A stretch of DNA of 64,000 bases from Tsuneonella suprasediminis (GTDB lineage Bacteria; Pseudomonadota; Alphaproteobacteria; Sphingomonadales; Sphingomonadaceae). Below the pieces are notes generated by a model. That model made no database searches. It saw nothing but the letters and a program-made list of their open reading frames with translations, and had not been told where the DNA came from. Both the position numbers and the translations under genes were made by a program. The stretch spans positions 62,001-126,000 of the forward strand of contig NZ_RAHJ01000003.1 of NCBI RefSeq assembly GCF_003605755.1, in the 5' to 3' direction. Positions 52,904-58,546 of the stretch are shown piece by piece (the first letter of the stretch is position 1; every line of letters begins with the position of its first letter).

Positions 52904-53677
52904 ATGGTTCAGCTCGCAGCCCGGTTTGGAAACGTGCGGTTCGCCGACAGGCGGCAGGAGATCGTGCGCCGTATCGGCATCGCCGCTGAACCGCGACCAG
53001 AGGATGTCGCAGCCCCGTCTCTGAGGCGGATGCTGGGTGAGCTCGATGTGCTGGCAGAGCCGGTTCGTCGGCGCTTCCGCACAATCGACATCGCGCCTGC
53101 GGTAACTCCGCGCACTGTGATGCTGTTGCCCGGATTTGCGACCCATCCGTTTCGTATGCGCTATCTCGCGCAGCAGATCGAACGTGCGGGGCACACTGTT
53201 AAGCGGTGGGGGCTGGGATACAACCTCGGCCCGAGCGAGGAAAATCTGCAACAGCTTGAAGCGCGGCTGGCGGATCTGGCGGTGCGGAGCGGCGGGCCGG
53301 TCTATCTCGTCGGGTGGAGTCTGGGTGGTCTGTTCGCGCGCGAACTGGCCAAGCGCCGCCCGCATGAAGTGGCCAAAGTGGTGACGATGGGATCGCCATT
53401 TTCCTACAATCCGCGGGCTAATAATGCCTGGCGCGCCTATCACCTCGTCACCGGACATCGGGTGGAAGAACCCCCGATCGAAGCCGATCTGGCGGCGAAA
53501 CCCCCGGTTGAAACGGTGGCTTTGTGGAGCCCGCGCGATGGCATAGTGCACCCCCGCGCCGCTCGTGGATTGCCCGGCGAGCGTGACAGAGCGGTTGCGC
53601 TGCGCTGCACTCACTTGGGTTTTGCCTATGCGCCAGAAGTAGTTAGCGCGATCTTGCGGGAACTCGAAGCGGGTTGA
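52904..53677 (+). CDS. Alpha/beta hydrolase
   Basis: A 257-residue alpha/beta-hydrolase. The oxyanion-turn region is VMLLPGFATHPF, the nucleophile elbow is LVGWSLGGLFARELAK (Ser about 148), a likely acid Asp is in WSPRDGIVHP and the His is in CTHLGFAYAP. It resembles lipases/esterases of the Palmitoyl/PGAP1 group, and no signal peptide is visible. The substrate is unknown. It lies 78 bases upstream of the Anbu cluster on the same strand but separated by a palindrome, so co-transcription is uncertain. Confidence 0.85.
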   Translation: MVQLAARFGNVRFADRRQEIVRRIGIAAEPRPEDVAAPSLRRMLGELDVLAEPVRRRFRTIDIAPAVTPRTVMLLPGFATHPFRMRYLAQQIERAGHTVKRWGLGYNLGPSEENLQQLEARLADLAVRSGGPVYLVGWSLGGLFARELAKRRPHEVAKVVTMGSPFSYNPRANNAWRAYHLVTGHRVEEPPIEADLAAKPPVETVALWSPRDGIVHPRAARGLPGERDRAVALRCTHLGFAYAPEVVSAILRELEAG

Positions 53678-53689
53678 GTGGGTTGATTA

Positions 53690-53705
53690 TTGTGCAATTG
53701 CACAA
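53690..53705. promoter_or_regulatory. Perfect palindrome upstream of the Anbu cluster
   Basis: TTGTGCAATTGCACAA is a perfect 16-base palindrome lying 50 bases upstream of the first gene of the ATP-grasp/alpha-E/transglutaminase/Anbu cluster; a related half-site AGTGCAAATT follows at 53719-53728. It is an obvious operator candidate. The TGCA-type symmetry loosely resembles NtrC-like enhancers, but no sigma-54 promoter was recognised. Confidence 0.55.
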
Positions 53706-53755
53706 AATGGTTATCGTCAGTGCAAATTAACCCCGATTCTCCCGAAAGGAGATGA

Positions 53756-55183
53756 ATGACCGGCGCTGCCGAGACTTTCGATGAAATGTTCGATCCCGCC
53801 GGAGAGGTGCGGTCGGGCTACGCAGATTACTGTGTTTGGTATGACGAGCAGGAAGTAGAACTTCTCCGTCGCAAGCATAAAGAGGCAGAGGCTTCTTTCC
53901 GGCGCACCGGTATCACCTTCAACGTCTATGGCGAACACGATGCCGAAGAACGGTTGATCCCGTTCGATATGGTGCCGCGGATTATCACGGCCAGAGAATG
54001 GCGGCGGCTGACGCGCGGGATCGAGCAGAGGGTGAGCGCGCTCAACGCTTTCATCCACGATCTGTATCACCGGCAGGAAATCACTCGATCGGGCCGCCTG
54101 CCGCAAAGGCTGTTGACCGGGAACGAGGCGTGGCTGGCCAATATGGTCGGCTTCACACCGCCGGGTGGGGTTTATACGCACATCGTAGGCATCGATCTGG
54201 TGCGAACCGGGCCAGACGATTTCTTCGTTCTGGAAGATAATGCGCGCACCCCCAGTGGCGTGTCGTACATGCTCGAAAATCGCGAAACGATGATGGCGAT
54301 GTTCCCGGAACTATTCACCCGCGTGCCGGTGGCCACGGTCTCGGACTATCCCCGCCGTCTGGCGCGTAGTCTGGCGGCGTGCGCGCCGAAGATGACCGCG
54401 GGCAAGCCGACAATCGCGGTGCTGACCCCTGGCATCTATAACAGCGCCTATTACGAGCACGCCTTTCTGGCAGACCAGATGGGTGCCGAACTGGTGGAGG
54501 GGTGCGATCTGCGGGTCGTCAATGGCCGTGTCGCGATGCGGACGACGATGGGTTACGAACCGATCGATGTGCTCTATCGCCGGGTGGACGACGAATTCCT
54601 CGATCCGTTGACCTTCAATCCCGACAGTGTGCTGGGTGTGCCGGGGATTATGGACGTCTATCGCTCTGGCGGGATCACTATCGCCAACGCGCCGGGCACA
54701 GGGATTGCCGATGACAAGGCGATCTATTCCTTCATGCCGGAAATCGTCGAATTCTATACCGGCGAAAAGCCTTTGCTGCCCAATGTCGAAACGCACCGCT
54801 GCGCCGACCCGGAAAGCCTGAAATACGTGCTCGATAATCTGGAAGAGCTGGTAGTGAAGGAAGTCCACGGATCGGGCGGATACGGGATGCTGATCGGACC
54901 GACCGCCAGCAAGAAAGAAATCCGCCACTTCCGCCACAAGCTGGAGTCGAAGCCGGAAAACTATATCGCCCAGCCCACGCTGGCGCTGTCGACCTGTCCG
55001 ATCTTCACCAACAAAGGGCTGTCGCCGCGCCATCTGGATTTGCGTCCATTCGTGCTGGTTTCGCCCGATAATGTGGAAATCGTTCCCGGCGGGCTGACGC
55101 GTGTGGCGCTCAAGAAGGGATCGCTGGTGGTCAATTCTTCGCAAGGCGGAGGCACCAAGGATACCTGGGTGCTGAAGGACTGA
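53756..55183 (+). CDS. Circularly permuted ATP-grasp ligase (DUF404/407 type)
   Basis: A 475-residue protein of the circularly permuted ATP-grasp family. Recognisable segments: ITFNVYGEHDAEERLIPFD near the N-terminus, FFVLEDNARTPSGVSYMLENR (about 162-182), VVKEVHGSGGYGMLIGPTAS (ATP-binding, about 363-382) and LVVNSSQGGGTKDTWVLKD at the end. It is predicted to form a peptide-like amide bond on an unknown substrate (family inference by Iyer and co-workers). It is first in a four-gene cluster; the alpha-E gene follows by 5 bases. Ribosome site AAGGAG 4 bases before the ATG. Confidence 0.9.
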   Translation: MTGAAETFDEMFDPAGEVRSGYADYCVWYDEQEVELLRRKHKEAEASFRRTGITFNVYGEHDAEERLIPFDMVPRIITAREWRRLTRGIEQRVSALNAFIHDLYHRQEITRSGRLPQRLLTGNEAWLANMVGFTPPGGVYTHIVGIDLVRTGPDDFFVLEDNARTPSGVSYMLENRETMMAMFPELFTRVPVATVSDYPRRLARSLAACAPKMTAGKPTIAVLTPGIYNSAYYEHAFLADQMGAELVEGCDLRVVNGRVAMRTTMGYEPIDVLYRRVDDEFLDPLTFNPDSVLGVPGIMDVYRSGGITIANAPGTGIADDKAIYSFMPEIVEFYTGEKPLLPNVETHRCADPESLKYVLDNLEELVVKEVHGSGGYGMLIGPTASKKEIRHFRHKLESKPENYIAQPTLALSTCPIFTNKGLSPRHLDLRPFVLVSPDNVEIVPGGLTRVALKKGSLVVNSSQGGGTKDTWVLKD

Positions 55184-55188
55184 TCGCG

Positions 55189-56145
55189 ATGGACCGGCAT
55201 ATGCTTGGGCGCACGGCCAACGGGCTGTTCTGGATGTTCCGCTATCTCGAACGGGTGGAAAATACCGCGCGCCTGATCGACGCGGCGCAGCGCATGGCGT
55301 TGACCCGCGATATCGTTTCGGCGGCGGAGGAATGGCGATCGGTTATCGAAACACTGGGGCAGCGGATTTCGTATGAAAGCAAGCATGGCACCTATACCGG
55401 GGTGCAGGCCTGGAATTTCCTGCTGCGGGACAGGGACAACCCGGCCAATCTCCATGCGCTGATGCGGTCGGTGCGGACCAATGCGCGCGCGGTGCGGACG
55501 GCGATCAGCAGCGAGTTATGGACTGCCATCAATGAAAGTTGGATGGAAATCGACGATGCGCTGTCCCGCCCTATAGCGCAGAGCAATCTGGGCGACGTTA
55601 TCAAACTGATAAAGCGGGCGGGTACACTGGCGCATGGTGCGGTTGCCAATTCGATGCTGCGCGATGCCGGTTTCAACTTTGCCCGTGCGGGCACATTTGT
55701 TGAGCGGGCAGATTCCACCGCCCGTGTGCTGGACATGAAATACTATCTGCTGCTGCCATCGGTCAGCTACGTCGGATCGAGCCTCGATGCAGGACAGTGG
55801 GATCAGTTGCTGCGTTCGGTGTCGGGCGACCGGGCATTTCGCTGGCTCAATGCGGGCAAGGCCGATGCGCGCGGGATCGTGGAATTCCTGATCCTCGACG
55901 AACGCTTCCCGCGCAGCCTTGCGTATAGCTATTCTCTGCTGCGCCAGAATCTCACAACCCTGTCGCGCCTGCACGGCACCGAAGGACGGGCGAGCGAACT
56001 GATCCGCGATTCAGCGACCGCGCTGGCGGATCTGACAATCGACGCAGTGTTCGACGAAGGGCTGCACCAGTTTCTCACCGGCTTCCAGCGCCGCAATGCC
56101 GAAATTGGCAATGCGATTGCGGAAGACTATCGCTTTCTCGCCTAG
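55189..56145 (+). CDS. Alpha-E domain protein (DUF403)
   Basis: A 318-residue all-helical protein with the family start MLGRTANGLFWMFRYLERVENTARLID, ISSELWTAINESW, FVERADSTARVLDMKYYLLLPSV and a GRASELIRDSATALADLTI C-terminal helix. Alpha-E proteins always accompany circularly permuted ATP-grasp ligases and are thought to be partner or substrate-handling modules; no activity is established. It starts 5 bases after the ligase stop, giving tight coupling, and ends 12 bases before the transglutaminase gene. Confidence 0.92.
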   Translation: MDRHMLGRTANGLFWMFRYLERVENTARLIDAAQRMALTRDIVSAAEEWRSVIETLGQRISYESKHGTYTGVQAWNFLLRDRDNPANLHALMRSVRTNARAVRTAISSELWTAINESWMEIDDALSRPIAQSNLGDVIKLIKRAGTLAHGAVANSMLRDAGFNFARAGTFVERADSTARVLDMKYYLLLPSVSYVGSSLDAGQWDQLLRSVSGDRAFRWLNAGKADARGIVEFLILDERFPRSLAYSYSLLRQNLTTLSRLHGTEGRASELIRDSATALADLTIDAVFDEGLHQFLTGFQRRNAEIGNAIAEDYRFLA

Positions 56146-56157
56146 GACGAATTCGCC

Positions 56158-56973
56158 ATGCGCCTCGCGATCCGCCATTCGACCACGTATCGTTTCGATG
56201 AACCGGTTGTGCACGCGCTCCAGCGGTTGCGGCTGACCCCGAAAGAGACGCAGGGGCAGGAAATACTCGACTGGCAGATGGAATACGATCACGCCGCGCT
56301 GGAACTGGAATACGAAGATCAGCACCACAATCATGTGACGCTGGTATCGGTCGAGCCGGGCACCACCGAAGTCACGATTACCTGCCGTGGCACTGTCGAT
56401 ACGCACGATAATGCCGGGGTGATTGGCCGCCATGCAGGGCATCTGCCCCTGTGGAGTTTTCTGACGCAAACCAAATTGACCCGCCCCGGCCCCCGGCTGC
56501 GCGCACTGTTTCGTGGGGTGGAGGAAGATCCCGCCGACCGGCTGACCTACCTACATGCTTTGTCGAGGGCGATACACGATCTCGTCAGGTACGAGACGGG
56601 CAAAACGGGTGTGCAGACAACCGCCGAAGAGGCGGTCGAGGCCGGGTATGGTGTGTGTCAGGATCACGCCCATATCTTCATCAGCGCGGCACGCGCCGCA
56701 GGTATCCCGGCGCGATATGTCAGCGGATACCTGATGATGAATGACCGGATCGATCAGGAAGCGACACACGCATGGGCAGAAGCGCATGTGGAAGGGCTGG
56801 GCTGGGTCGGGTTCGATATATCCAACGGCATCAGCCCCGATCCACGCTATGTCCGTGTGGCAACCGGGTGCGATTATAACGATGCCGCGCCCATTACCGG
56901 GATCAGCGTTGGCTCAGCGACCGAGTATTTGCACGTTGACGTTGCCGTGGAGCAGCAGCAGGTGGAGCAGTAG
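56158..56973 (+). CDS. Transglutaminase-like cysteine protease
   Basis: A 271-residue protein. An N-terminal beta domain (about 1-85; MRLAIRHSTTYRFDEPV, the bacterial transglutaminase N-term) precedes a transglutaminase-fold core with catalytic Cys167 (GYGVCQDHAHIFISAARAAGIPARYVSGY), His204 (THAWAEAHVEG) and Asp220 (GFDISNG). It likely cleaves or forms an isopeptide/amide bond, the counterpart of the ATP-grasp ligase in the same operon. There is no signal peptide, so action is cytoplasmic. The Anbu gene follows 28 bases later. Confidence 0.92.
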   Translation: MRLAIRHSTTYRFDEPVVHALQRLRLTPKETQGQEILDWQMEYDHAALELEYEDQHHNHVTLVSVEPGTTEVTITCRGTVDTHDNAGVIGRHAGHLPLWSFLTQTKLTRPGPRLRALFRGVEEDPADRLTYLHALSRAIHDLVRYETGKTGVQTTAEEAVEAGYGVCQDHAHIFISAARAAGIPARYVSGYLMMNDRIDQEATHAWAEAHVEGLGWVGFDISNGISPDPRYVRVATGCDYNDAAPITGISVGSATEYLHVDVAVEQQQVEQ

Positions 56974-57001
56974 GGGATCGCCCGCGCCGCTGGAGAAGTG
57001 A

Positions 57002-57748
57002 ATGACGTATTGTGTGGGAATGGTGCTCGATAAAGGGCTGGTGTTGATGAGTGACACCCGCACCAATTCGGGCGTCGACAATATCTCTGTGTTCCGCAAA
57101 ATGGCGCACTGGCAAGTGCCGGGCGAACGCATAATAGCTGTGATGACCGCCGGAAATCTGGCCACCACGCAATCGGTTATCAGTCAGCTGGAAGAACGAA
57201 CCAAGGCGCCGAACGAGCGGCGCAATTCAGTGTATGATGCGCCGACGATGTTTCAGGTCGCTACCGAAGTCGGGCAGTTGTTGCGCGAAACGATTCAGGA
57301 ACGACAGGATGTCAACGGCCAGCAGGGGCAGGGACGCTTTACCGCGACGATGATCGTTGCGGGCCAGATCAAGGGGATGGAGCCGCGCCTGTTCCTGATC
57401 TACCCCGAAGGCAACTTTATCGAAGCGAGCTGGGATACTCCGTTTTTCCAGATCGGTGAAACCAAATACGGGCGTCCGATTCTGATCCGAGCCTACGATC
57501 GCACGATGAGTTTCGAAGATGCCGTGAAGCTGCTGATGGTCAGTTTCGATTCGACTCTGAAAGCCAATCTCTCGGTCGGTTTGCCGCTCGACATGATGGT
57601 GATCGAACGCGATCAGTTCGAACCTTCGCAATCGCGCCGCATTACTCACGAAGATGAGTATTTCCAGACAATCTCCGCCGGATGGGGTGATGCCTTACGC
57701 AATGCGTTCGATGCTTTGCCAAAGTACCGCTTTCCCGAAGACGATTAG
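57002..57748 (+). CDS. Anbu proteasome-like peptidase
   Basis: A 248-residue protein of the Anbu class (ancestral beta-subunit). The N-terminal MTYCVGMVLDKG predicts Thr nucleophile exposure after Met removal (Thr2), with Asp18 (VLMSDTRTN) and Lys33 completing the proteasome-like triad. The rest has RFTATMIVAGQIKGMEPRLFLIYPEG and AVKLLMVSFDSTLKANLSVGLPLDMMVI, typical of Anbu and longer than HslV. Anbu assembles as open helical rings in the literature; its substrate is unknown. Last gene of the ATP-grasp/alpha-E/transglutaminase cluster, so probably acts on the product of these enzymes. Confidence 0.92.
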   Translation: MTYCVGMVLDKGLVLMSDTRTNSGVDNISVFRKMAHWQVPGERIIAVMTAGNLATTQSVISQLEERTKAPNERRNSVYDAPTMFQVATEVGQLLRETIQERQDVNGQQGQGRFTATMIVAGQIKGMEPRLFLIYPEGNFIEASWDTPFFQIGETKYGRPILIRAYDRTMSFEDAVKLLMVSFDSTLKANLSVGLPLDMMVIERDQFEPSQSRRITHEDEYFQTISAGWGDALRNAFDALPKYRFPEDD

Positions 57749-57859: not shown

Positions 57860-57876
57860 ACCTCCATTTTGGAGGT
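57860..57876 (+). promoter_or_regulatory. Hairpin containing a Shine-Dalgarno-like sequence
   Basis: ACCTCC-ATTTT-GGAGGT forms a perfect 6-bp stem-loop with the Shine-Dalgarno-like GGAGG in its descending arm, 43 bases before the ATG chosen for the LuxR-type gene. It could be a translational control element or a weak terminator. Confidence 0.35.
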
Positions 57877-57919
57877 ACTTTCGTTACTGACCGACCATTT
57901 TCAGCGGCATACCGCAAAT

Positions 57920-58546
57920 ATGAATGAACGACATCTGATCCATTTTATCGACCGGGCAGGCAATCGCGATAGTCAACTGGTTCGGGTGGCTGTGGCTGCG
58001 GGATGTTGGCCGCTGGTTTACCGTTCTGTCGAAGAATTATGCTCTGCCCGCCCGTCCGACGGAATAGTCATTGCATCGGATGATCCGCCGCGATGTGGGG
58101 TGATTCATGCGTTCGAAATGATGACGGCGGCCCGGATATGGTTGCCGTTGATTGCAGTAAGTGAGAAACCAATACCCGCCCGTGTGGTCAGCGCGATCAA
58201 GGCCGGGGTTTTTGACTATCTGAAGCTGCCATTACAGGAAGAATGGCTGCGAGGTGCCATTCGCCGTATTCGAACCGAGGCGGAGGCGCATGTACGTTCG
58301 CTGCGGCGGAGGATTGAGGCCCGATCCCGCATCGGGAAACTGTCACTACGCGAACGGCAGGTGCTCGATCGGTTGGCTTGCGGTGGCAGTAACAAGGTGA
58401 TCGCACGTGATTTAAACATCAGCCCGCGAACGGTAGAAATCTATCGCGCGAACATGATGGCCAAACTGCATGCCGCCCATAGTGCCGAAGCGGTGCGGAT
58501 GCGGGTCGAGGCACAACTGGACGATCGATCGACCGAACGGGCATGA
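57920..58546 (+). CDS. LuxR/FixJ-type regulator with a degenerate receiver
   Basis: A 208-residue protein. The N-terminal domain has a receiver fold but appears to lack key residues: IVIASDDPPRCG stands where the phospho-Asp block would be, with Ser at the Asp position, and no clear N-terminal acidic pair; FDYLKLP retains a Lys. The C-terminal LuxR HTH is standard (LSLRERQVLDRLACGGSNKVIARDLNISPRTVEIYRANMMAKL). It probably binds DNA without phosphorylation. The start is uncertain: ATG 57920 lacks a good ribosome site, and a TTG at 57869 is also in frame. Convergent with an extensin-like lipoprotein gene 31 bases away. Confidence 0.78.
   Translation: MNERHLIHFIDRAGNRDSQLVRVAVAAGCWPLVYRSVEELCSARPSDGIVIASDDPPRCGVIHAFEMMTAARIWLPLIAVSEKPIPARVVSAIKAGVFDYLKLPLQEEWLRGAIRRIRTEAEAHVRSLRRRIEARSRIGKLSLRERQVLDRLACGGSNKVIARDLNISPRTVEIYRANMMAKLHAAHSAEAVRMRVEAQLDDRSTERA

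Follow-up and report, generated by a model that had tools for sequence, protein, structure and literature searches.

The window analysed here, a stretch of 64,000 nucleotides from Tsuneonella suprasediminis (contig NZ_RAHJ01000003.1, positions 62,001 to 126,000), carries four adjacent genes that end with the gene for Anbu (ancestral beta subunit), a relative of the proteasome subunits, and a 16-base palindrome stands in front of them. We propose that in the family of this bacterium, Sphingomonadaceae taken broadly to include Erythrobacteraceae, the known Anbu operon has come under the control of a PhaR-type operator and would be switched on with storage of polyhydroxybutyrate (PHB), a reading to which we give a probability of about 0.6. 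The sequences show the operon itself and a box, present in about half of the family, that resembles proven PhaR sites and is rare elsewhere; together these make the operon a candidate for the PhaR regulon. The main features of the window are as follows.

53690..53705, no strand: palindrome TTGTGCAATTGCACAA, candidate operator, with half-sites TTGTGC/GCACAA and a 4-base (not 3-base) spacer
53756..55183, plus strand: circularly permuted ATP-grasp ligase-like protein, 475 aa (Pfam PF14403/PF04174; PDB 3n6x)
55189..56145, plus strand: Alpha-E helical protein, 318 aa (Pfam PF04168, 4.4e-82)
56158..56973, plus strand: transglutaminase-like cysteine protease, 271 aa (Pfam PF01841/PF08379; PDB 3isr)
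57002..57748, plus strand: Anbu, 248 aa (Pfam PF00227, Proteasome, 1.8e-10; PDB Anbu entries)

The original prediction, made from the letters of the DNA, described four tightly spaced genes, and all four open reading frames (ORFs) were found where it had placed them (53756-57748, plus strand, with gaps of 5, 12 and 28 bases). Its naming of the products was borne out by Pfam matches to all four. The ATP-grasp protein matches CP_ATPgrasp_2 and CP_ATPgrasp_1 (1.8e-160 and 1.3e-141) and, over residues 4-475, PDB 3n6x (E 3.7e-191). The transglutaminase-like protein matches Bact_transglu_N (3.3e-20), Transglut_core (6.7e-23) and PDB 3isr (E 3.8e-15), and its Cys, His and Asp align with their counterparts in 3isr. 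For Anbu the PDB matches are 5nyj (E 5e-72), 5nyf, the entries 5nyw and 5lox, which are titled 'Peptidase', and the designed Anbu 5loy (E 2.4e-82). The candidate catalytic residues of Anbu are the N-terminal Thr, Asp17 and Lys32/33 (PMC6376114), and in the window protein, which starts MTYCVG...SDTRT...FRK, Thr2, Asp18 and Lys33 stand at these places, as judged by position. The Anbu protein of T. flava MS1-4 is 100% identical to it. At least 92 of the 102 related loci that have a usable upstream region contain these four genes in this order, as counted from the 12 commonest arrangements. Judged by its sequence, the gene set and order of the window is that of the published Anbu operon (PMC5666114, PMC6376114), described by Valas and Bourne in 2008 and by Iyer et al. 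in 2009, as cited in the same two papers. The tight spacing and the catalytic Thr, Asp and Lys are shared as well, and gene content does not differ; PhaR-type boxes, in contrast, are not mentioned in the available parts of these two papers.

The boxes were searched for in 116 sequences, the window and 115 further loci, of which 14 were dropped (12 had no ATP-grasp or Anbu gene in the piece and 2 were too short), leaving 102 usable and 98 distinct upstream regions. The 98 include one region from a sister family, L056, which lacks a box. The matrix was built from 17 published PhaR sites of Sinorhizobium meliloti (PMC12542648, Table 3) and is independent of the Anbu data; these are 17 of the 20 sequences rated 'Efficient', three of four exoH sites, indistinguishable by gel shift, being left out. 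When the last 120 bases before the ATP-grasp gene were scanned, with expectations taken from dinucleotide shuffles, a score of at least 10 was reached by 46 of the 98 upstream regions against 1.1 expected, and a score of at least 14 by 39 against 0.2 expected. Many of the usable upstream regions carry TTGTGCACTGCAC, TTGCTGCATTGCAC or TTGTTGCACTGCAAC. Other gene starts in the same loci reached a score of 10 in only 6 of 754 cases (DUF3617 1/69, hydrolase 2/72, Alpha-E 0/100, transglutaminase 1/99, Anbu 0/109, LuxR 2/88, extensin 0/85, PutP 0/57 and uvrB 0/75, the uvrB start being approximate because the query was shortened), and among all 120-base tiles of the family loci, true boxes included, 138 of 12191 did so. 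The box is present in 16 of 31 members of a relatives sample made up of ten congeners and a single genome from each other genus. The sequences are not independent of each other. On the tree the box occurs in both deep branches, and its distribution requires 18 label changes, compared to 32.8 for shuffled labels. Given its occurrence in both deep branches and the results of the internal controls, neither chance nor kinship alone is likely to account for it.

A site of this type precedes the phasin gene, usually in two copies, and most of the PHB depolymerase and phaR genes examined. With the S. meliloti matrix, 19 of 20 phasin upstream regions score at least 19.9, 16 of 20 PHB depolymerase upstream regions at least 11.9 and 6 of 7 phaR upstream regions at least 10.6, while only 2 of 20 phaC upstream regions reach 10; these stretches are longer than 120 bases, and scores near 10 count little there. 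PhaR is a repressor that is titrated by PHB granules, and published sites for it are of this type: CTGCNNNGCAG comes from Rhodobacter sphaeroides, and those of S. meliloti read YGCRNYGCR (PMC12542648). The core YGCRNYGCR and the phaP1 site TTATTGTGCACTGCACAAATT of the PhaR/AniA regulon, known from S. meliloti and other alphaproteobacteria, match both the Anbu boxes and the pha boxes found here. The difference lies in the targets: proteasome, transglutaminase, peptidase and alpha-E are absent from the text of PMC12542648, where ATP-grasp is mentioned once, for SMb21227 (module 2), outside Table 3. A link between PhaR and Anbu was not seen in the titles or abstract starts among the matches listed in the open-access literature. 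PhaR itself is encoded in the genome of the window (PF07879, 5.3e-31) and was found in 7 of 7 genomes, this one included, and in 71 of 72 genomes. Because PhaR is nearly universal, its co-occurrence with the box was discarded as a test. Two further PhaR-type boxes were observed, one before an ORF (L158:1501, genome G014) and one before a PHB depolymerase gene (L162:1501, genome G024). The only exact TTGNTGCANTGCANCA site in the genome of the window lies on contig 18 at 157545-157560 (L160:1501-1516), 40 bases before ORF 1557-2081, which by eye looks like a GNAT acetyltransferase and is possibly another PhaR target.

The perfect 16-base palindrome that the original prediction placed upstream of the cluster is present at 53690-53705 and ends 50 bases before the ATG of the ATP-grasp gene. 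The idea that it is an operator survives in modified form: its arms are half-sites of the PhaR box, TGC-N3-GCA, that stands before about half of the family's Anbu operons, whereas the 16-mer as a fixed sequence is not conserved. The genome of the window and G003 carry it exactly and G004 (T. flava) with one central change; in the other 8 of the 11 Tsuneonella genomes it was not found. Read literally, the search of homologous clusters for the palindrome thus nearly fails, with the arms in this spacing in 3 of 11 Tsuneonella. Across 40 relatives, the window's own genome included, the arms with a two-base centre stand before Anbu only in these three genomes, and the palindrome was therefore rejected as a general operator. 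When aligned, the three agree fully in the arms and near flanks but not in much of the remaining gap, a divergence that comes from G003, as G004 is too close to inform. The site scores 11.6 with the S. meliloti matrix, a value reached in the register of a three-base spacer (N3) with one arm displaced. It lies at -69 from the ATG, and the best sites of the congeners L037, L038 and L040 lie at -76, -75 and -66. On the proposed reading, the window operator would be the 16-base palindrome, a PhaR-type site with a spacer one base longer, and binding of PhaR there is plausible. A second matrix, built from the family's own pha sites, was exceeded at its threshold of 8 by 44 of the 98 upstream regions against 1.1 expected.

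Several observations weigh against control by PhaR, in the family or in the window. More than half of the upstream regions (52 of 98) score below 10, among them 5 of 11 from Tsuneonella, including L034 and L035 with their four-base-spacer palindrome, and none of six loci titled Novosphingobium has a box. Genome G027 has a strong Anbu box (19.6) and no PhaR match in a 96%-complete assembly. The window promoter has no canonical N3 box, its spacer being AATT, four bases, and the family pha-site matrix gives it 8.7, above the threshold of 8 and below 10. The congeners L036 and L046 have their best sites elsewhere, at -27 and -34. Exact TTGTGCA-N{0,4}-TGCACAA sites number 26 in the 40 relatives; 17 are of the N3 form, nine of them at phasin or depolymerase genes according to a coordinate comparison covering these nine, and 5 have a four-base spacer (N4), of which three are the Anbu sites of the window's clade and two lie inside a coding ORF. 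Finally, results on PhaR binding or expression for this family were not found in the open-access literature.

This distribution would suit an arrangement in which the family boxes are PhaR sites while the four-base-spacer site of the window's clade serves a different, perhaps local, regulator and PhaR is inactive here. Exact-arm N4 sites occur at no other non-coding place in the 40 relatives, the phasin, depolymerase and phaR upstream regions of the window's genome retain N3, and the LuxR/FixJ-type gene adjoining the operon is a regulator without an assigned target. Much of the close clade, however, keeps this LuxR gene in genomes that lack the 16-mer, and the half-sites of the window are PhaR half-sites placed about where three congeners have N3 boxes. 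We consider a separate regulator less likely than PhaR, but a serious alternative. Still less probable is that the palindrome is due to chance or is a structural element without any regulator, for example an RNA hairpin ending the upstream hydrolase gene. The window holds two perfect palindromes of at least 16 bases (53690 and 41597) and the mean over 30 dinucleotide shuffles of the whole window is 2.5, whereas such a palindrome fell within the 78-base gap in only 32 of 20000 shuffles; it is rare for the gap, yet not unusual for 64 kb. A hairpin of modest stability does form (z -1.76), but no U-run follows the palindrome and the 4 terminator-like sites of the window all lie elsewhere, which makes the hairpin reading weak, and the arms are kept in G003 against a differing background. 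In the whole genome TTGTGCAATTGCACAA has one exact copy; allowing up to 2 mismatches adds two places, one inside a 99-aa ORF and the other coding in appearance by eye. The second N4 site, on contig 18 of the window's genome with a counterpart in G004, was dismissed as a sign of a wider N4 regulon, as it lies inside a 99-aa minus-strand ORF.

A third possibility is that the operon is under sigma-54/NtrC nitrogen control in the window's genome too, in line with reports on other proteobacteria, the boxes being secondary, and we regard this as the most improbable of the three. It draws on a class-wide sample of 60 loci, chosen without two that had already been collected and without the weakest matches (E above about 2e-57). 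Of these, 16 were discarded (15 had no detected ATP-grasp gene and one lay at a contig end), and 44 were usable. Sigma-54-like -24/-12 sites stand before 12 of these 44 Anbu operons, from five families, against 0.6 expected, and at the other gene starts of these operons there are none (0/44, 0/42 and 0/59). Moreover, rpoN is present in the genome of the window. In the family set, on the other hand, only 2 of 97 upstream regions (L034 and L056) reach the same threshold of 6 of 8 consensus matches and none reaches 7; the window is not one of the two, and a -24/-12 promoter was not found before its ATP-grasp gene. Loss of rpoN was rejected as the cause of the regulatory change, since the gene is present in the family genomes queried except G032, which is 67% complete. 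Five class-wide loci from two families (L253, L269, L286, L287 and L290) match the sigma-54 consensus at 8 of 8 positions before ATP-grasp. As a class-wide feature the PhaR box was discarded, with 2 of 44 at threshold against 1.2 expected from shuffles (controls: Alpha-E 0/43, transglutaminase 1/36, Anbu 3/44); the two are L270, near-perfect at 26.8, and L263 at 11.3, and L238, the member of this sample from the window's own family, has no box.

Anbu (COG3484) has been linked to sigma-54 in the literature before (PMC12316311). The homologous operon of Pseudomonas putida, PP_2685-PP_2688, encodes a proteasome beta subunit, a transglutaminase, a protein annotated as hypothetical and a circularly permuted ATP-grasp. 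On nitrate compared to ammonium, PP_2685 and PP_2688 rise by about 4 log2 units (PMC8050072), and in the first table column for nitrogen limitation PP_2686-2688 are up 11- to 15-fold and PP_2685 only 1.12-fold (PMC7801951). This induction, which we count in favour of the proposed reading, is attributed to NtrB/NtrC (PMC7801951, PMC8050072), whereas the window's family lacks a sigma-54 signal at the operon and has PhaR boxes. We also considered a wider reading, in which the Anbu operon is a module for nitrogen shortage and carbon excess, one family uses the PHB-sensing PhaR where others use sigma-54/NtrC, and the protease would be made when PHB granules form. The induction of PP_2686-2688, still about 14- to 20-fold in the column that is presumably the rpoN mutant (PMC7801951), speaks against sigma-54 control and lowers the probability of this wider reading, which we hold tentatively, at a little under even odds.

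Returning to PhaR control in the family, we infer that PhaR binds, which way its control runs and everything that the enzymes are said to do. When PHB is low, PhaR would be bound at the promoter box and the operon kept low. Under carbon excess and nitrogen shortage, PHB granules would form and titrate PhaR away, and its release would turn on the operon at the same time as the phasin and PHB depolymerase genes. Amide bonds may then be made on peptides or proteins by the ATP-grasp/Alpha-E pair, whose products the transglutaminase-like protease and the Anbu ring may cut. The overall role would be a nitrogen-sparing turnover of proteins or peptides in nitrogen-poor, carbon-rich growth. Structural work argues for protein degradation (PMC5666114) rather than for the peptide modification named in the original prediction. 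The Y. bercovieri ATP-grasp protein released phosphate from ATP, and peptidase activity was not detected for the Anbu proteins of Y. bercovieri, Hyphomicrobium and P. aeruginosa (PMC6376114). In the literature available to us, Anbu has solved structures but no known substrate or detected activity and little physiology. A promoter that ties the operon to PHB storage in one family, and sigma-54 signals in others, would supply a condition, a regulator and a mutant for the substrate hunt, and having one operon under two distinct sensors of nutrient imbalance would support a role in nitrogen-limited, carbon-rich growth. If the module is indeed controlled by PhaR, the substrates of Anbu would be proteins or peptides turned over during PHB accumulation, perhaps associated with the granules.

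Three further features of the window lie around the operon.

52904..53677, plus strand: alpha/beta hydrolase directly upstream, not counted in the operon (Pfam; close-clade conservation)
53709..53729, plus strand: degenerate half-site CAGTGCAAAT, found by eye from the upstream list
57869..58546, plus strand: LuxR/FixJ-type regulator downstream, with a TTG start (Pfam; close-clade conservation)

In the close clade the block consists of uvrB (minus strand), DUF3617, the alpha/beta hydrolase, the four genes, the LuxR/FixJ-type regulator, an extensin-like gene (minus strand) and often PutP (minus strand). The hydrolase gene precedes the operon on the same strand in most close-clade loci and was not detected in more distant ones. 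Where Anbu is 41-66% identical, the surrounding block went mostly undetected, and what stands together is only the set of four genes or part of it. A sigma-70 consensus scan gave no match at 53709..53729. In many Erythrobacter relatives the equivalent region holds, by eye, a -10-like GGTTANATT and an N3 PhaR box. In Erythrobacter upstream regions (L085, L089, L091 and others), a recurring CTTTCCTTTTGCGAAAG-like element, which looks like a putative promoter, lies about 65 bases before ATP-grasp and is followed by GGTTANATT-like letters and then by the box.

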